Below, piece after piece: positions 1 to 27,254 of a stretch of DNA of 44,677 nt. Within the stretch, counting starts at the first letter, position 1, and every line of letters begins with the position of its first letter. Below the pieces are notes generated by a model. That model had not been told where the DNA came from. It searched no databases and worked only from the letters and a program-made list of their open reading frames with translations. The DNA is taken from the NCBI GenBank assembly GCA_937876245.1, contig CALEGP010000029.1:1-44677 (forward strand), written 5' to 3'. The stretch comes from an uncultured Actinomycetes bacterium. Its GTDB lineage: Bacteria; Actinomycetota; Actinomycetes; Nanopelagicales; Nanopelagicaceae. The position numbers and the translations under genes were made by a program.

Positions 1-396
1 TTAGTAAGCAACGCCTGATGCAACCATTACATTGCCCCATGCTAAGTAATCTCCTGTGCGAATGACGCCAACTGCACCATATGCCAATTTCTTAAACTCG
101 GCATGTGGAAGTGGAATGCACTCGGCCTTAGTCATGATAGCAGTGAGTTCAGCGGCTCGATCTTCAGCGCTAGGTTGAATCTCGCTAGCAAACCAGAATT
201 GTTCTATTGGTAGCTCAAGAGTCAGCATCTTTAAAACATCACTCACTTTAGGCAGGTTTGGCCCCATTGAAAGGTCAATACATGGAACACCAGCTGGGAC
301 TGGAAAGCCAGCATCAGATATAACTATGCGATCAAAGTGGCCAGTCCTGGCAACCATTGCAGAGATATCTCGGTTGATAATTCCAGTGTATTTCAT
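1..396 (-). CDS. rbsD: D-ribose pyranase RbsD
   Basis: Complete 131-residue protein, the usual RbsD length. The family interconverts the pyranose and furanose forms of D-ribose (and other sugars), supplying the form used by ribokinase in the cytoplasm. His20 in the motif GHFD matches the conserved catalytic histidine of RbsD. DAGFPVP follows it, and the C-terminus ends with VIRTGD and ASGVAY, which resemble the family's terminal region. It lies 21 nt downstream of rbsK on the same strand and is the last gene of the operon visible here. The stop codon occupies the first three bases, so the operon may continue outside the window. Confidence 0.93.
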   Translation of the reverse strand: MKYTGIINRDISAMVARTGHFDRIVISDAGFPVPAGVPCIDLSMGPNLPKVSDVLKMLTLELPIEQFWFASEIQPSAEDRAAELTAIMTKAECIPLPHAEFKKLAYGAVGVIRTGDYLAWGNVMVASGVAY

Positions 397-417: not shown

Positions 418-1347
418 TTACGCATTTTCATGGATAAATTTCTCTACTTCTTCAGGAGTTGGTGATGCCATCGCCGAGCCCTTGCGAGTCACTTTAAGGG
501 TTGCAGCATAAACGCCAAAGCGGGCTGCAGCAAAGATGTCATCTCCTGCTCCGAGTCGTGTCGCAAGATTTGCGCACATAGTGTCACCGGCGCCGATAGT
601 GTCGATAGCCGTAACTTTTGGTGCCAAGATTGTTTCTGATCTTTCGCCATCGGTTACGAATGCGCCCTTTGGCCCAAGTGTTATCACAACGTTTTTGCAA
701 CCAAGCAACTTACAAAGAGCTTGGGCCTGCTTTTCAACATCGCCTTCAATTCCAGTTAACTCTGCGGCTTCGCCCTCATTTGGAACTATGACATCGACTA
801 AGCCTTCCCAGCCAATTAACGGTGCAACTGGTGCGGGCGTTAATACAACGGTGACGCCATTATCTTTTGCTAACTTTGCCGCAGCCAAATTTCCATCTGT
901 TGGAAGTTCGAGTTGAAGTAGCAATACATCAGATTCGATAATAGTTTTTGCATGCCGCGAAATGTATTTAGCATCGCCTAAATCATTTGACTGCGGAATG
1001 ATAATGATGGAGTTATCGCCATCTGAGGTTTGAACCGAAATGTGACCGACGCCAGTACCGAGATCGGCACTTCGTTCAATGTCACCCGAATTAACACCCT
1101 CGTCGCCAAAAGCTTTCATGAAGTCATCACCGAAACTATCGGTGCCAAGATTTCCAAGCATCGCACTTTGTGCGCCAGCGCGTCCGGCGGATATTGCTTG
1201 ATTAAATCCCTTGCCACCAAGTGCGATTGCAAAACTTTCACCGCGAAGAGTCTCGCCACTTTTTGGACGCCTCGGTGTGTAAGCAACCAGATCCATCATG
1301 AAACTTCCGAGCGTTGTTACGCGTGGATTTTTTGAATTATCCGACAT
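418..1347 (-). CDS. rbsK: Ribokinase (PfkB family)
   Basis: PfkB-type sugar kinase of about 309 residues, expected to phosphorylate ribose to ribose 5-phosphate with ATP. The N-terminal GGKGFNQA motif and the C-terminal GAGDTM motif (around residue 255, with the catalytic Asp) are both clear. NEGEAAELTG is typical of ribokinases. A GTG codon at 1350 overlaps the last base of the upstream stop codon, and an ATG follows directly at 1347; I chose the ATG because the protein then begins MSDNSK, but either could be used. Placement next to rbsD supports ribose as substrate. Some ribokinases also accept arabinose, which matters given the neighbouring isomerase. Confidence 0.9.
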   Translation of the reverse strand: MSDNSKNPRVTTLGSFMMDLVAYTPRRPKSGETLRGESFAIALGGKGFNQAISAGRAGAQSAMLGNLGTDSFGDDFMKAFGDEGVNSGDIERSADLGTGVGHISVQTSDGDNSIIIIPQSNDLGDAKYISRHAKTIIESDVLLLQLELPTDGNLAAAKLAKDNGVTVVLTPAPVAPLIGWEGLVDVIVPNEGEAAELTGIEGDVEKQAQALCKLLGCKNVVITLGPKGAFVTDGERSETILAPKVTAIDTIGAGDTMCANLATRLGAGDDIFAAARFGVYAATLKVTRKGSAMASPTPEEVEKFIHENA

Positions 1348-1349
1348 CA

Positions 1350-1946
1350 CTAATTTGTTGCCTTACCGAGCGCTCCACCAGGATGACGTTTCCCAAAATC
1401 TTGTGAGGTAAATCCACGATGCGCCATAAGTGCTGAAGCAAGTGCATCACCAACAGCAATTGTTAGCGTTGTTGAAGTTGTTGGTGCCAGGTTTAAGGGA
1501 TCTGCTTCTTCATCAAAGGCAATGCTGATTACCGCATCTGCGCTCTTAGCAAGGCTCGAATTAGAGCCTTTAGTAATGGCAATTACTGAATTTCCCCAGA
1601 TCTTGGCCATTTTTGTAATTGCATTTACTTCAGCAGTTTCGCCAGAGTTTGAAATCGCAATCAAAACATCGCCTGAAGTTAGGGCACCAGAATCACCGTG
1701 AAGGCAGTCAGCTGAATGCAAGAAGAAAGAAGGAGTTCCGGTGCTGGAAAGTGTTGCGGCAATCTTTGCGCCAACTAGCCCAGATTTTCCAAGTCCGGTT
1801 ACTACAACATGGCCTTTGCATTCAATAATTATTTCAAGCGCAGGAGTTAAGTTTTCTTCAAGTGTCTGTGAAAATATTGTCAGAGCCGCTATTTCAGTAG
1901 TTATTGCGCTCGTTGCAGCAGCAAGAGCTTTAGATAAATCACCCAT
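1350..1946 (-). CDS. SIS-domain sugar-phosphate isomerase, arabinose-5-phosphate isomerase-like, lacking CBS domains
   Basis: A 198-residue single SIS domain. It resembles the N-terminal part of KdsD/GutQ arabinose-5-phosphate isomerases: VVTGLGKSGLVGAKIA, the STGTPSFFLH stretch, HGDSGAL, AISNSGET and a C-terminal HPGGALG are all present. The usual C-terminal CBS pair is absent, so it is about 60 percent of KdsD length. The family interconverts ribulose 5-phosphate and arabinose 5-phosphate. KdsD normally feeds Kdo synthesis, which is not expected in an actinobacterium, so a catabolic role beside rbsK and rbsD is more likely. It overlaps the aldehyde dehydrogenase gene by 8 nt. A 6-phospho-3-hexuloisomerase role is a less likely alternative. 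Confidence 0.8.
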   Translation of the reverse strand: MGDLSKALAAATSAITTEIAALTIFSQTLEENLTPALEIIIECKGHVVVTGLGKSGLVGAKIAATLSSTGTPSFFLHSADCLHGDSGALTSGDVLIAISNSGETAEVNAITKMAKIWGNSVIAITKGSNSSLAKSADAVISIAFDEEADPLNLAPTTSTTLTIAVGDALASALMAHRGFTSQDFGKRHPGGALGKATN

Positions 1947-3444
1947 TGATCACTCGATTAATTCCTAGTGGATTTGCTTCCTGAAGCGCCAGTGGCAGCA
2001 ATTCATCATTGAAATTTTGGAAGGCAACAGGGCGCAAGAATCGATAAATTGAATCTAAGCCAACCGAAGTTGTGTGGCTAGATGATGCTGGCCACTGGCC
2101 ACCATGTTGCATTGCTGCGGTAACAGCAACGGCAGTTGGAAAACCATTCATGATTACTCGACCAGCAAGTTGAGTTAAGGAGCTAACCAATTTAGCTACA
2201 TCTTCGCCAGCAGCAACATGCAAACTTGCAGTTAATTGACCTTCAAGTTTTTCAGCAACATTCTGAAACTTTGCAAAATCTGCGCGAATAATTATGGTAG
2301 TCGGACCAAAATGCTCTTCTAATAGTTCTTTATTCTTAAAAGCATCAGCCCAATCAACAACGAAGACTGTTGGCGTAACACCAAATCCAGCTTCTGTTGC
2401 TTTTCCAGCAAATGTTTTTAGTGATGCGCTCTTTGCGAGGTCAGTAATTGCGGATACGAAGCGATCTGCTATCCCCTTATTTAGTAGCGGTGCAACTGCA
2501 ATTGTTGCCAAATAACTTTCGATTTCAGCAATAAATACATCGCCTTCAGCGCCCGTTGGAACAATTAAAATTCCTGGCTTTGTGCAGAACTGACCAGAAC
2601 CAAGGGTCGCCGAATCAATCGCTGCCTTCGCAAGTTCCTCGGCTTTCTCGGCTAGAACTTTCGACGAGAAGAAAACAGGATTTAAGCTTCCCATCTCCGC
2701 GAAAACTGGAATTGGAACTTGCCGCTGGGTCGAGATTTCCAAAAGTATCTTTCCCACTTTTCCTGATCCGGTAAATCCAATTGCATTTATATCTGGGTGG
2801 CTTGCAATCCAATGCGTAATTTCTGGATTAATTCCTTCAACTAATGCGAAGGCGTCTCCAGAGATGCCGACCTTGGCTAGGCCAGCTATGACTGCATCGC
2901 GCATGGCCCTGCAAGTATTTGGGTGTGAAGGATGGGCTTTAACAACAACAGGACATCCTGCCGCCAGCGCTGATGCACTATCCCCACCGATCACCGAAAA
3001 AGCGAATGGAAAATTGCTTGCTGCAAATATTCCCACAACACCCAGTCCTTGATTTGCTTTTCTAATATCTGGCCGAGGCGCCGGAATCCACTTTGCATCT
3101 GGCTTATCAATAATTGCTTGGTAATGCGCGCCAGTTTCGACCAACTTAGCAAATTGCTCAAGCTGAAAGACAGTTCGAGAAAGTTCTCCAGTTAGTCGGC
3201 CATTTGGCAGCGCAGTTTCGCGCATCGTTATCTCTATCAATTTCTCGCGCGAGTTTTCAATAGATTCAGCTATCGCTCTAAGCATTGCTGCACGTTGTAC
3301 CGGAGTTGTGTTAGCCATCGAGCTCGTTGTCGCAACAGCTCTGGAAATCAACCCCGCCACATCTGAAGCTGACGCCTCGGCAATTTGCTCACCAAATGCA
3401 GTTCCAGTGGTGGGATCGACGGCTTGGAAGGTAGATGAAGTCAT
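1939..3444 (-). CDS. Aldehyde dehydrogenase, 2-oxoglutarate semialdehyde (2,5-dioxovalerate) dehydrogenase type
   Basis: Full-length ALDH of 501 residues. Visible catalytic residues are Asn144 in SNFPFAF, Glu250 in FAEMGS and Cys287 in GSGQFCTKPG. The stretches GGDSASALAAGCPVVVKAHP and GQFCTKPG are characteristic of the NADP-linked ketoglutarate semialdehyde dehydrogenase group that ends oxidative (Weimberg-type) pentose and sugar-acid pathways. It is the first gene of the pentose operon. The start is supported by a TAGAGT -10-like box exactly 6 nt upstream of the ATG, with no Shine-Dalgarno, implying a leaderless mRNA. The substrate is inferred from family resemblance only; no pentonate dehydratase lies beside it. 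Confidence 0.8.
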   Translation of the reverse strand: MTSSTFQAVDPTTGTAFGEQIAEASASDVAGLISRAVATTSSMANTTPVQRAAMLRAIAESIENSREKLIEITMRETALPNGRLTGELSRTVFQLEQFAKLVETGAHYQAIIDKPDAKWIPAPRPDIRKANQGLGVVGIFAASNFPFAFSVIGGDSASALAAGCPVVVKAHPSHPNTCRAMRDAVIAGLAKVGISGDAFALVEGINPEITHWIASHPDINAIGFTGSGKVGKILLEISTQRQVPIPVFAEMGSLNPVFFSSKVLAEKAEELAKAAIDSATLGSGQFCTKPGILIVPTGAEGDVFIAEIESYLATIAVAPLLNKGIADRFVSAITDLAKSASLKTFAGKATEAGFGVTPTVFVVDWADAFKNKELLEEHFGPTTIIIRADFAKFQNVAEKLEGQLTASLHVAAGEDVAKLVSSLTQLAGRVIMNGFPTAVAVTAAMQHGGQWPASSSHTTSVGLDSIYRFLRPVAFQNFNDELLPLALQEANPLGINRVING

Positions 3445-5900: not shown

Positions 5901-5998
5901 CCCTAGGGCCGGCCTCAAATCATGAGCAAATGATTGGTCAAATAGATCTGGCCCCGACCGCTACCACTCATATTCTCGATGCCCAATGCTGCGAGGAT

Positions 5999-6004
5999 TA
6001 CACT
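5999..6004 (+). promoter_or_regulatory. -10 box of probable leaderless promoter for ABC transporter operon
   Basis: TACACT is followed by six bases and then GTG at 6011. This is the same spacing as at the other leaderless starts in the window. It supports GTG 6011 over the upstream ATG at 5930 as the start of the ATPase. Confidence 0.4.
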
Positions 6005-6010
6005 GAAGAG

Positions 6011-6913
6011 GTGGGTAATAAACCAGCGATTATTTTAGAAAATCTCACTAAGAGATACGGTTCCAGTCGTGGCATTGAGAATATTTCACTCACTATTAAT
6101 CCATGTGAAGTTTTTGGTTTTCTCGGACCAAATGGGGCAGGAAAGACAACTGCGATTAGAACTCTTGTCGGATTAATCAAGGCTTCGAGCGGTTCGGCTC
6201 AGATACTAGGAATTAATGCTCTGGAAAATAACCTTGAGTTACGATCAAAAATTGGTTATCTGCCTGGAGCACTCTCAATTTATAAGGGCTACACGCCATG
6301 GGAATATTTGAAATTTCTCGGGAAATTACGTGGAATCAACTGTGATACCAAAATTAGAGAGTATGCCGATCGGCTAAATCTTGATTTGCATCGCCATATT
6401 TCCGAGCTCTCGAAAGGCAACCGACAAAAAGTCGGAGTGATTCAAGCCTTTATGCACGAACCTGCTGCACTATTTCTCGATGAACCAACCAGCGGCTTAG
6501 ACCCCATAGTACAACGTGAGTTTGAAGATATTCTTGATGAAACTAAGGCGCGAGGGGCGGCAGTGATGCTGTCATCTCACGTCATCAGTGAAGTTGAGCA
6601 TCTAGCAGACCGCGTAGCAATCATAAATGAAGGAAAGCTGCTTGTTGTAGAAAAAATTTCAGTGCTCAAGGAGCGGGCAGTTAGAACAATTGACCTCTAT
6701 TTCGACAAGCCAATCTCTCTTCGTGATTTCGAAGGCGTCTCTGGAGTCAAAGACATCATGGTGAAAACTCAGCGTTTACGGTGCACCGTACTCGGGTCAG
6801 AGAAAGAATTGCTTACTGTTGCCCTTGCTCATGGCCTGCAAAGTGTCCGAACGCACGAGCCATCACTCGATGAGATTTTTCTACAACTAGTTGGCGCACA
6901 GGTGTCAAAATGA
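6011..6913 (+). CDS. ABC transporter ATP-binding protein (ABC-2 exporter type)
   Basis: ATPase subunit of an ABC-2-type exporter, 300 residues from GTG 6011. Walker A GPNGAGKT is at residues 39-46, with a variant signature LSKGNRQK, Walker B ALFLDEPTSGLD and an H-loop SSHVIS. A C-terminal extension of about 80 residues is typical of drug or antibiotic exporters. An ATG at 5930 would add 27 residues with no family resemblance and no ribosome-binding site, whereas GTG 6011 has a -10 box at leaderless spacing. It overlaps the permease gene by ATGA. Substrate unknown. Confidence 0.9.
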   Translation: MGNKPAIILENLTKRYGSSRGIENISLTINPCEVFGFLGPNGAGKTTAIRTLVGLIKASSGSAQILGINALENNLELRSKIGYLPGALSIYKGYTPWEYLKFLGKLRGINCDTKIREYADRLNLDLHRHISELSKGNRQKVGVIQAFMHEPAALFLDEPTSGLDPIVQREFEDILDETKARGAAVMLSSHVISEVEHLADRVAIINEGKLLVVEKISVLKERAVRTIDLYFDKPISLRDFEGVSGVKDIMVKTQRLRCTVLGSEKELLTVALAHGLQSVRTHEPSLDEIFLQLVGAQVSK

Positions 6914-7707
6914 TGCTGACCTTATTTCTCAAAACCTGGCGAGATCACTGGAAGTCTTTGATTTCTTGGGCTGGTGTCTTGGTCACCATGACGACCATTG
7001 AGCTATCGGTCTATCCGACCATTTCCAAGTCTGGTCAAGTGTTCCAAAAATTCATAGATAGCTACCCAGATGCCATAAAGAAAATATTTCGAATGGAGGA
7101 TTACACCTCCGGTCCTGGATTCTTAAGTACCGAGTTATATAGCATGATGCTTCCTCTTGTATTGATCGCCGTTGGGGTGACTTTTGGCGCAAGTGCAACT
7201 GCAGATGAGGAAGAAAAAGGCACGGCAGATCTGCTTTTTACAATGCCTGTTAGTAGAAGCAAAATTATGGCGAGCAAAATGGCAGCCACCGTCTCCGTAC
7301 TTTTCATTTTAGGCTTTGTCACTTATCTCAATATCTATATCGGGTCCGGCCTGGTTGATATGGAAATCAATTTGAGTTTCTTGGCTTGGGGAACGATTTC
7401 TTGTGCCCTTATTGGACTCTTCTTCTCTGGAGTCGGCTATATTTTTGGCGCGTTGACCGGCAAGAAAGGCGTCTCTCTTGGCGCAAGTTCAGCAATTGGC
7501 TTACTTTTCTTCGTTTTCTATTCCATCGCTCCATTAGTAAATGATTTTGAATTTCTCACACCAATTAACCCATTTCACTGGGCCTTAGGCGGAAATGTTC
7601 TTTTTAGCGGCCCGGACTGGCCAGGCATGGCAAAACTATTATCCGGAACCATAATTCTCTACTGCTTCAGTTTCGTTATTTTCAATCGAAAAGATATTCG
7701 TACCTGA
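6910..7707 (+). CDS. ABC transporter permease, ABC-2 family
   Basis: 265-residue integral membrane protein with about six hydrophobic segments: around residues 15-35, 80-95, 120-145, 155-180, 195-215 and 240-257. A cytoplasmic loop reads TADEEEKGTADLLFTMPVSRS, a pattern typical of ABC-2 permeases, where GT..LL..PVSR precedes a membrane helix. It overlaps the ATPase stop by four bases, so the two form one exporter. The downstream neighbour rho is convergent, with a gap of only 5 bp and no visible terminator. The exported compound cannot be told from sequence. Confidence 0.88.
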   Translation: MMLTLFLKTWRDHWKSLISWAGVLVTMTTIELSVYPTISKSGQVFQKFIDSYPDAIKKIFRMEDYTSGPGFLSTELYSMMLPLVLIAVGVTFGASATADEEEKGTADLLFTMPVSRSKIMASKMAATVSVLFILGFVTYLNIYIGSGLVDMEINLSFLAWGTISCALIGLFFSGVGYIFGALTGKKGVSLGASSAIGLLFFVFYSIAPLVNDFEFLTPINPFHWALGGNVLFSGPDWPGMAKLLSGTIILYCFSFVIFNRKDIRT

Positions 7708-7712
7708 TTGAA

Positions 7713-9353
7713 TTAGGAGCCGTTTGCTGAAGTGCCACTCTCTTGGGTTGTGGTCTTCTGGATTTGCATCAAGAATTCGACGTTCGACTTTGTGCCCTTC
7801 ATTTTCTCAAGGAGCAACTCAAGAGCTTGTTGCGGTTCAAGGGCATGAAGCACTCGGCGCAAACGCCATACAATATTGAGTTCCTCGGTTCCCATCAGGA
7901 TTTCTTCCTTACGAGTTCCAGATGCCACGACATCTACGGCTGGGAAGATACGCTTATCGGCAAACTTTCGGTTCAAAATAAGTTCCATGTTGCCAGTTCC
8001 CTTGAACTCTTCGAAAATAACTTCGTCCATTTTCGAGCCAGTATCTACGAGAGCTGTTGCAAGAATTGTGAGCGATCCACCATTTTCAACATTACGGGCA
8101 GCACCAAAAAATTTCTTAGGTGGATATAGCGCTGCAGAGTCGACACCACCGGACAAAATACGTCCTGATGCTGGAGCCGCGATGTTATAGGCACGGCCAA
8201 GGCGAGTAATCGAGTCCAGGAGAACAACCACATCATGGCCAAGTTCTACCAAACGCTTGGCTCGTTCAATTGCTAGTTCAGCCACCGAAGTGTGATCATC
8301 TGCGGGGCGATCGAAAGTTGAAGCTATCACTTCACCCTTGATCGAACGCTGCATATCAGTAACTTCTTCAGGGCGCTCGTCAACAAGAACAACCATTAAG
8401 TGGCACTCAGGATTATTAGTAGTAATCGCATTTGCAATAGCTTGCAGCACCATAGTTTTACCAGCCTTTGGTGGTGAAACAATTAATCCACGCTGACCTT
8501 TACCGATAGGTGAAATCAAATCGATTACCCGAGTAGTCAAAATATTAGGTTCAGTCTCTAAACGCAGACGCTCCTGCGGATAAAGCGGAACTAGTTTTGA
8601 GAATTCAACTCGGCCCTTTGAACTTTCAGGATCCGCACCATTAACAGTCTCGACCCGAACAAGGGCATTGAACTTTTCCTTGCGCTCACCTTCATGTGGT
8701 TGGCGAACTGATCCTGTCAGTACATCACCTTTGCGAAGTCCATAGCGTCTAACTTGTTGCAATGAAACATAAACGTCATTTGAACTAGCCAAGTAGCCAC
8801 CTGTGCGGATAAAAGCATAATTTTCGAGAATATCTAGGAGTCCGCCAACCGGCAGCAGAACATCATCTTCAGAAATAACAATTTCACGTTCTTCGCGATT
8901 TCCGCGATCCCGGAAGCGATTATTGCGGTCGTTTCGGTCTCCTCTATCGCGACGATTGTTCTGGCGATCATTGCGATTATTGCTTCCGCCACCAGTCCAT
9001 TCCTTCTTGTTAACATCAGCATCTGATGCATCATTTGGATTTGACCCTTGGTTTTCACCATCATCAGCATCATTTTTATTGTTGCTCGAGGCATTGCTGG
9101 TCGAAGGGTTATTATTTGAATTTTTATTTCCGCTCTTGCGGCGGGAATCGCGTTCGGCGCGACGTGCTTCGCGTTCTGCTTTTGCGGACTCACGATTTGA
9201 AGCTTGCAAGTCACCAATCGCTTGAACTAAATCCGACTTCTTCATTGTTGTCGCTTCTTCGATACCAAGTTGGCTCGCAACTTTCTTAAGCTCAGGAAGG
9301 AGCATTGCTGAAAGTTCGCCAGATTCTTTTGCGCTAGCTTTTGTAGTTGCCAT
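7713..9353 (-). CDS. rho: Transcription termination factor Rho
   Basis: 546-residue hexameric RNA helicase that ends transcription. The N-terminal SAP-like Rho-N region spans about residues 10-50. Residues 55-155 form a low-complexity insert rich in Asn, Arg, Asp and Ser, as seen in actinobacterial Rho proteins. The RNA-binding domain follows from about residue 160 (VLLPVGGLLDILENYAFIR). Walker A is SPPKAGKT at 293-300, with VVLVDERPEEV and LLDSITRLGRAYN downstream. No strong Shine-Dalgarno precedes the ATG; the upstream region is A-rich on the coding strand. Confidence 0.97.
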   Translation of the reverse strand: MATTKASAKESGELSAMLLPELKKVASQLGIEEATTMKKSDLVQAIGDLQASNRESAKAEREARRAERDSRRKSGNKNSNNNPSTSNASSNNKNDADDGENQGSNPNDASDADVNKKEWTGGGSNNRNDRQNNRRDRGDRNDRNNRFRDRGNREEREIVISEDDVLLPVGGLLDILENYAFIRTGGYLASSNDVYVSLQQVRRYGLRKGDVLTGSVRQPHEGERKEKFNALVRVETVNGADPESSKGRVEFSKLVPLYPQERLRLETEPNILTTRVIDLISPIGKGQRGLIVSPPKAGKTMVLQAIANAITTNNPECHLMVVLVDERPEEVTDMQRSIKGEVIASTFDRPADDHTSVAELAIERAKRLVELGHDVVVLLDSITRLGRAYNIAAPASGRILSGGVDSAALYPPKKFFGAARNVENGGSLTILATALVDTGSKMDEVIFEEFKGTGNMELILNRKFADKRIFPAVDVVASGTRKEEILMGTEELNIVWRLRRVLHALEPQQALELLLEKMKGTKSNVEFLMQIQKTTTQESGTSANGS

Positions 9354-26282: not shown

Positions 26283-27254
26283 ATGAGCAACTCCTCCGAC
26301 TTTGATCTCATCACCATTGGCCGCGTCAGCGTAGATATTTATCCCTTGCAATATGGCGTCGGACTGGAAGATGTAAAGACCTTTCAAAAATTCTTAGGGG
26401 GCAGCGCCACAAATGTTGCTTGTGCTGGAGCGAAATATGGACTCAAATCCGCGATCATAACCAGAACTGGCAATGATCCATTCGGAAATTACATCCACCA
26501 GGAGTTAGAACGTCTAGGCGTCAGCGATGAATTTGTATCAAGTGTCCCAAGCCTTCCAACTCCAGTCGTCTTCTGCGAGATTTTTCCACCAGATGATTTC
26601 CCTCTCTATTTTTATCGCGAACCTAAGGCTCCTGACTTAGTTATCAATTCCGACGAACTAGATCTTGAGGCAATTAAGAGTGCCAAGATTTACTGGTCTA
26701 CGGTCACCGGTTTATCACAAGAACCAAGTCGATCTGCCCATCACAAAGCCTGGGAGGCACGTGCTCGGAAAACCCACACGATTTTAGATTTAGATTACCG
26801 GCCAATGTTTTGGTCATCGGCTCAAGATGCAACTGGGGAGATTGAGAAAGCGCTCAGCAAAGTAACTATCGCTCTTGGCAACAAAGAAGAATGTGAAGTT
26901 GCTGTTGGAGAGTCTGATCCAATTCGCGCCGCAGATGCCCTGCTAGAGCGCGGGCTGGAACTTGCGATTGTTAAGCAGGGACCAAAAGGTGTACTGGCAA
27001 AAACTAAAACTGAGGTTGTTGAAGTTCCACCATATCTGGTTGATGTAGTAAATGGTCTTGGTGCTGGTGATGGTTTTGGTGGCGCACTTTGCTATGGTCT
27101 GTTGCAAGGATGGCCACTTCGTAAAATTCTTGAATTTGCGAATATTGCTGGGGCTCTGGTTGCAACCAAGCTGGAATGTTCAACTGCTATGCCAACCCTT
27201 GAAGAGGTCGAAGAAGTTCTTGCGAAAATTAACAAAAACGGTGGCCTTATCTGA
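26283..27254 (+). CDS. iolC: 5-Dehydro-2-deoxygluconokinase
   Basis: 323-residue PfkB kinase that phosphorylates 2-deoxy-5-keto-gluconate with ATP. The N-terminus DLITIGRVSVDIYP, then GGSATNVACAGAKYGL, is strongly IolC-like. The C-terminal GLGAGDGFGGAL contains the catalytic Asp. Its product is cleaved by an aldolase, and the next gene encodes a plausible one, overlapping by one base (TGATG). No clear Shine-Dalgarno precedes the ATG; an AAAGAT hexamer sits at leaderless spacing but is a poor -10. The upstream palindrome probably controls the gene. Confidence 0.93.
   Translation: MSNSSDFDLITIGRVSVDIYPLQYGVGLEDVKTFQKFLGGSATNVACAGAKYGLKSAIITRTGNDPFGNYIHQELERLGVSDEFVSSVPSLPTPVVFCEIFPPDDFPLYFYREPKAPDLVINSDELDLEAIKSAKIYWSTVTGLSQEPSRSAHHKAWEARARKTHTILDLDYRPMFWSSAQDATGEIEKALSKVTIALGNKEECEVAVGESDPIRAADALLERGLELAIVKQGPKGVLAKTKTEVVEVPPYLVDVVNGLGAGDGFGGALCYGLLQGWPLRKILEFANIAGALVATKLECSTAMPTLEEVEEVLAKINKNGGLI

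Follow-up and report, generated by a model that had tools for sequence, protein, structure and literature searches.

The window (the whole 44,677-nucleotide stretch analysed here, from an uncultured, probably freshwater actinobacterium of the Nanopelagicaceae) opens contig C29 in a 1.52 Mb genome of 39 contigs, 99.99% complete. Four genes lie on the minus strand at its beginning: an NADP-type, KGSADH-like aldehyde dehydrogenase (ALDH; 1939-3444, 501 aa), a CBS-less isomerase of the KdsD/GutQ/KpsF type (SIS; 1350-1946, 198 aa), a ribokinase-like PfkB kinase with a GTG start which we propose to be a D-arabinokinase (RbsK; 418-1350, 310 aa), and an RbsD pyranase (1-396, 131 aa), complete with its TAA stop at 1-3. 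The ALDH and SIS genes have 8 nt in common, the stop of SIS overlaps the start of RbsK, and a ribosome-binding-like AAGGAGAAG precedes RbsD after a short gap. The overlaps, together with the short gap and its putative ribosome-binding site, suggest a single transcript, and thus the four genes are probably co-transcribed in the window genome. As the same order recurs in relatives of the same genus, the arrangement is not a matter of chance, and the four linked genes described in the first-pass annotation proved to be real, being minus-strand reading frames with matched families and a conserved order.

The four genes are preceded by prfA and prmC (both names were read from the sequence rather than from a family search). 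The gap between prmC and the ALDH gene is 20-22 nt in 9 of the 11 relatives in which both genes were read, and 106 nt in the window. Relatives G150 and G027 carry a 408-aa gene on the opposite strand between prmC and ALDH (CoA-transferase-like in G150), and the same arrangement was seen in G050 and G547. Further into the window, a pair of genes for an ABC-type ATPase and a membrane protein, as read from the sequence (5930-7707), lies between prfA and a 546-aa reading frame (7713-9353); a pair of equal lengths occupies the same place in G108, whereas other relatives that were read, among them G039, G096 and G015, lack it. An additional PfkB-family kinase is encoded at 26304-27197.

The SIS protein matched the SIS family (PF01380, 93 bits), and KpsF/KdsD/GutQ models scored best, at 193 bits. 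Its 193 bits against TIGR00393 are under the 203.7 of that model, with positions 1-151 of 268 matched; no CBS domain match was found in the protein, whose chain stops at residue 198. The c3406 chain (5uqi) is also 198 residues long, and this entry, titled 'E. coli CFT073 c3406 in complex with A5P' (A5P being arabinose 5-phosphate), was both the top solved sequence match (157 bits) and the top Foldseek match of the structural model (E 1e-17, model pLDDT 88.9). It was followed by 2xhz, the E. coli A5P-isomerase domain, while the HxlAB entry 9lj9 ranked 22. In a tree with some long branches, from which we took the window clade and its broad placement and nothing finer, this clade (96/99) lies among KdsD-type domains. 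Residues K54, H83, E106, E147 and H188 correspond to K59, H88, E111, E152 and H193, the active-site set of E. coli KdsD, and are invariant in all 11 aligned members (residue numbers were shifted by 5 according to the 2xhz alignment, which ends before H193, and H188 comes from the 5uqi alignment). Judged by sequence, tree and predicted fold, the protein is nearest to the A5P-isomerase subfamily, in agreement with its first description as a CBS-less enzyme of this type.

A KdsD-like isomerase had been called unexpected in a lineage without lipopolysaccharide, and Kdo synthesis genes had been named as evidence that would speak against a salvage route. The KdsA model gave no match in the genome (of KdsA, KdsB, KdsC and WaaA, this search covered KdsA), while in the same run it matched 9 of the 14 control genomes, 4 of them over the cut-off. 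A Kdo role for the SIS protein was rejected on this ground. The absence of a KdsA match is in line with the original surprise, which is nevertheless weakened by a precedent, as an A5P isomerase was reportedly published by Cech in 2017 from Clostridium tetani, a Gram-positive organism without lipopolysaccharide. RpiB is present in the genome, so that the SIS enzyme is not needed as a ribose-5-phosphate isomerase, and this role was set aside as well. The equilibrium of A5P isomerases favours A5P (excerpt of PMC11591822), and flux toward D-ribulose 5-phosphate (Ru5P) must therefore be pulled.

The kinase belongs to the PfkB family and scored best with the ribokinase model TIGR02152, at 269.2 bits under a cut-off of 299.65. 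We mapped the ribose contacts named in an excerpt of PMC9604405 onto E. coli RbsK (1rkd) and found D16, G42, K43, N46, E143 and D255 kept in the window kinase. Asn14, a ribose contact, is replaced by Met18 (codon 1297-1299, minus strand), Ala45, which adjoins the contact Asn46, by Phe49 (1204-1206, minus strand), and position 98 is Gly102 (1045-1047, minus strand). Met14, Phe45 and Gly98 are present in 14 of 14 SIS-linked kinases of the main alignment and also in G629 and G546, and thus all 16 SIS-linked kinases readable at position 98 have Gly there. (The two latter sequences were added later and are neither in the 14/14 count nor in the column scan described below; the partial L050 was counted in the 14 and left out of the scan; a G090 fragment without the position-98 region and a G547 contig without the kinase were left out of the counts.)

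Of 89 other actinobacterial ribokinases, 87 have Ala at position 98 and two have Gly, both of the latter being devoid of Asp16; none of the 86 background kinases with Asp16 has Gly98. Met at position 14 occurs in 4 of the 89. This background is a part of the ribokinase match list (the first 30 sequences and 59 hand-chosen down the list, after removal of L288, which repeats the L243 gene and would have made 90), so that it leans to high-scoring ribokinases. A scan of the 45 columns with at least 90% conservation in the background gave A98G as the sole uniform replacement in SIS-linked kinases; with the limit set at 80%, three of 67 columns were uniformly replaced (N14M, A45F and A98G). Five printed ribokinase alignments have Ala at position 98 in all five. 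The SIS-linked kinases form one clade on a long stem, and Gly98 should thus be counted as one origin, not as 16 independent ones; P values that treat these sequences as independent are for this reason too favourable.

The replacement at position 98 coincides with a designed one. According to an excerpt of PMC9604405, A98G in E. coli RbsK raises kcat for D-arabinose from 1.9 to 29 per second (15-fold), lowers KM from 470 to 310 mM (1.5-fold) and impairs the use of ribose. As KM is still 310 mM, an effective arabinokinase would need more than Gly98. D-arabinose has been converted to A5P with human ribokinase (excerpt of PMC11430244), and that enzyme has Met at position 14 in our alignment. The window genome also encodes a second kinase, on contig C33, with 345 bits, over the TIGR02152 cut-off of 299.65, and with Ala at position 98; CUT2-type periplasmic-binding, permease and ATPase genes lie near it, with GMC and Gfo/Idh oxidoreductase genes between. 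Ribose thus has another kinase in this genome, and given this second kinase, RpiB and the single RbsD, the window kinase is available for a different pentose.

RbsD scored 108 bits against the ribose pyranase model PRK11797, over its cut-off of 93, and is the sole match to the RbsD/FucU family in the genome. It had initially been described as a simple ring opener, which does not agree with what is known of the family, whose members convert the pyranose and furanose forms of a sugar into each other. The fourth gene product belongs to the Aldedh family, its nearest solved structures are the NADP-type 3v4c and 1eyy, and Cys287 and Glu250 (the catalytic Cys and Glu) are in place. The label 'KGSADH-type' can be kept as far as this similarity goes, but the protein is over the cut-off of neither curated KGSADH model (105 vs 750 bits for NF052305, 83 vs 770 for NF042993).

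Contig C2 ends in 55 bases identical with window positions 1-55, and on this basis it adjoins the start of the window. Past 227 bp, C2 carries a 451-aa gene with no match to Pfam or NCBIfam models, two MalF/MalG-like permease genes, a class V aminotransferase-like gene and a 790-aa TPP-enzyme-like gene. The first-pass annotation had advised a look beyond position 1 for a pentose transporter; the genes there include the two permeases just mentioned, and no D-arabinose transporter was identified among those inspected. Further on C2 lie FAH hydrolase, L-arabinonate-dehydratase-like IlvD/Edd, SMP-30, SDR, DHDPS, KDG-kinase and KDPG-aldolase-like genes. At L064:14415-17944 (C2), the 790-aa TPP-enzyme-like, class V aminotransferase-like and MalF/G-type permease genes separate FAH from RbsD. 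The FAH gene and RbsD converge directly on each other in relatives, G039 among them, so that the ABC/TPP set appears particular to the window genome among those read. The FAH protein scored 204 bits with an L-2,4-diketo-3-deoxyrhamnonate hydrolase (8gsr) vs 37 bits with a KDA dehydratase (2q18). Routes of the Route III type end in pyruvate and a short acid (excerpt of PMC6336799), and the similarity of the FAH protein fits this type better than a route ending in KGSADH. Inside the sugar-acid cluster, at L046:4893-6161, there is also an enolase-like gene, which scored 412 bits against a cut-off of 300.

We found SIS orthologues (E <=1e-40) in 17 of the 296 genomes of the order, namely in 15 of the window genus and in G003 and G629. 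In a 151-genome sample of the family, the window genus is listed with 21 genomes, 13 of which have SIS. Across the 151, both a close RbsD and SIS are present in 13 genomes, SIS alone in one and RbsD alone in two, and two of these three mismatches (G066, G090) are contigs ending inside RbsK. The trio of SIS, RbsK and RbsD is met in three contexts. It stands alone, without ALDH, in G629, of a second genus, where SIS, RbsK and RbsD are 78, 85 and 92% identical to their window counterparts and are flanked by glycine-transporter and alpha-amylase genes on one side and by a small reading frame and then an ammonium transporter on the other; ALDH orthologues in the genus of G629 are about 54-57% identical to the window ALDH. 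In G003, of a third genus, the trio, again without ALDH, accompanies a ribose-type ABC transporter: SIS-RbsK is followed by a 158-aa gene, a metallo-beta-lactamase-fold gene, RbsD and then RbsB/A/C/R-like genes, the regulator being an RbsR-like LacI protein. Flanks made up of ALDH and a sugar-acid cluster are found in the window genus alone. Conversely, G001, from another genus, has a cluster of SDR, enolase-like, IlvD, FAH and ALDH genes without the trio. The contexts in G001, G003 and G629 mark SIS-RbsK-RbsD as a unit and the link to ALDH as local, and on their basis ALDH is a member of an older sugar-acid cluster, not of the trio. It is likely that the trio was transferred between genera.

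In the phylum outside the family such SIS genes are rare (17 of 396 genomes at E 1e-20, the window's included), and several of them sit in operons of other types. A scan of named genomes gave at least 80 loci, and three among those listed belong to relatives of the window genus. At the other listed loci with a called SIS gene the protein is of KdsD length (285-425 aa) and no RbsD neighbour was found; 10 of the listed 80 were without a called SIS reading frame and were excluded from this judgement. Four of the listed loci, from Nitrospira/Nitrospirae, have an RbsK-like protein (26-37% identity) 3-4 kb from SIS. Some other SIS neighbourhoods are worth recording. In L164, L165 and L166 (G445, G372, G500), inositol-3-phosphate-synthase-like, PfkB, Gfo/Idh/MocA and SIS genes follow one another, their families having been read in L164, and some of these loci also have LacI-type and sugar ABC genes close by. 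They may represent another phosphosugar or inositol route that employs this type of isomerase. In L059, L060 and L061, another SIS (about 42% identical) lies beside xylulokinase-like genes (families read in L059), a gene of 820 aa whose single chain resembles both the alpha and the beta subunit of PDH E1, a gene for a lipoyl protein and sugar ABC genes. In L170, L171 and L173, SIS adjoins DHDPS- and KDPG-aldolase-like genes, and L170 has an ascorbate-type PTS IIC gene. Finally, the RbsD of G100 (L229, G100:C35:5289-5678), 83% identical to that of the window, has neither RbsK nor SIS nearby.

We propose, with fair but by no means full confidence, that SIS-RbsK-RbsD is a three-gene module for using D-arabinose by phosphorylating it first. 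In such a route, RbsD would speed the exchange between the pyranose and furanose forms of D-arabinose, the divergent ribokinase would phosphorylate D-arabinofuranose at O5 to A5P, and the CBS-less isomerase would convert A5P to D-ribulose 5-phosphate, which would enter the pentose phosphate pathway. The upstream ALDH may serve the neighbouring sugar-acid route and would share the transcript because in the window genus the trio lies downstream of it. While gene order, families, residues, pocket changes and contexts are observed, the substrate and the direction of this route are what we infer from them. The arabinose salvage route suggested by the first-pass annotation is thus supported in its phosphorylating half, through A5P, which the kinase pocket favours, with D-arabinose as the best-supported substrate; it is not supported for the dehydrogenase, which is not part of the module.

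Several facts count against this reading, namely that RbsD matches a ribose pyranase model, that the RbsA/C-like ABC genes and RbsR-like regulator of G003 suit ribose too, and that the G100 RbsD occurs away from both partners. To these must be added the single origin of Gly98, the high KM that E. coli A98G retains for D-arabinose, an isomerase equilibrium on the side of A5P, and the failure to identify a D-arabinose transporter. An ordinary ribose operon, in which D-ribose would be turned into ribose 5-phosphate by RbsD and RbsK while SIS makes A5P from Ru5P for some other product or balances pentose phosphates, would account for the RbsD score and the rbs-type set of G003, as well as for the conserved equivalents of Asp16, Gly42, Lys43, Asn46, Glu143 and Asp255. 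We nevertheless regard it as unlikely: the kinase is below the ribokinase cut-off and has lost the equivalents of Asn14 and Ala98, the second kinase of the genome is over that cut-off, and no KdsA match was found that could use A5P. It is rather improbable that SIS has another sugar phosphate as its substrate (for example hexulose 6-phosphate, or allose or allulose phosphates), with the kinase acting on the corresponding free sugar. HxlB-type models do match SIS, and Met14 and Phe45 could suit another sugar, but the 64 bits of these models are about threefold below the 193 bits of KpsF/KdsD, and the top fold match is an A5P complex.

That all four genes form one pathway, with the KGSADH-like enzyme finishing an oxidative branch for the same pentose, has in its favour that the overlapping genes suggest one transcript and that relatives carry, on the far side of RbsD, an IlvD/Edd sugar-acid dehydratase, an FAH hydrolase, an SMP-30 lactonase and SDRs. 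However, ALDH occurs with the sugar-acid cluster and without the trio in G001, while G003 and G629 have the trio without ALDH, which makes this explanation quite improbable and goes against the original proposal that oxidative and phosphorylating routes share this operon. Least of all do we expect that A5P is formed from glycolaldehyde and glyceraldehyde 3-phosphate and assimilated by SIS, the kinase being incidental. A synthetic pathway of this kind that employs KdsD is functional in E. coli (excerpt of PMC9947464), and contig C2 encodes a DHDPS-family protein, possibly an aldolase; on the other hand, the trio with its kinase and pyranase occurs as a unit in G629.

Returning to the D-arabinose module, its components are known families and their combination is apparently undescribed; a natural pathway of a ribokinase and an A5P isomerase was not found in the open-access papers searched, with most subscription papers outside that search. 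We lean, if only slightly, toward a portable, previously undescribed pathway from D-arabinose through A5P to Ru5P, with a natural D-arabinokinase whose Ala98-to-Gly change matches the designed one and with an A5P isomerase serving catabolism, not Kdo synthesis. If this is true, A5P isomerases gain a catabolic role, which would explain some of those found in organisms without Kdo, D-arabinose has an added route needing neither an isomerase nor a dehydrogenase for this sugar, and there is a natural candidate for the arabinokinase step missing from synthetic arabinoside cascades. The reading also gives a prediction at one residue, accessible to enzyme assay.

The known bacterial routes for D-arabinose either isomerise first, via D-ribulose, or are the oxidative Routes I-III (excerpt of PMC6336799). 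The trio would share with them its substrate, and with the E. coli B type the product Ru5P, whereas phosphorylation would come before isomerisation and the module has no D-arabinose isomerase or dehydrogenase. Like E. coli RbsK (1rkd), the window kinase has the PfkB fold and equivalents of Asp16, GGKG, Asn46, Glu143 and the catalytic Asp255; unlike it, it has Gly98, Met14 and Phe45 and falls below the TIGR02152 cut-off. The window SIS resembles the reported C. tetani enzyme in being of the A5P-isomerase type in an organism without lipopolysaccharide. With KdsD, GutQ, KpsF and c3406 it has in common the SIS fold and active-site residues, and with c3406 its single-domain length; it differs from all four in its linkage to RbsD and a kinase of ribokinase type, in a genome where KdsA gave no match, and in the direction proposed for it, toward Ru5P.
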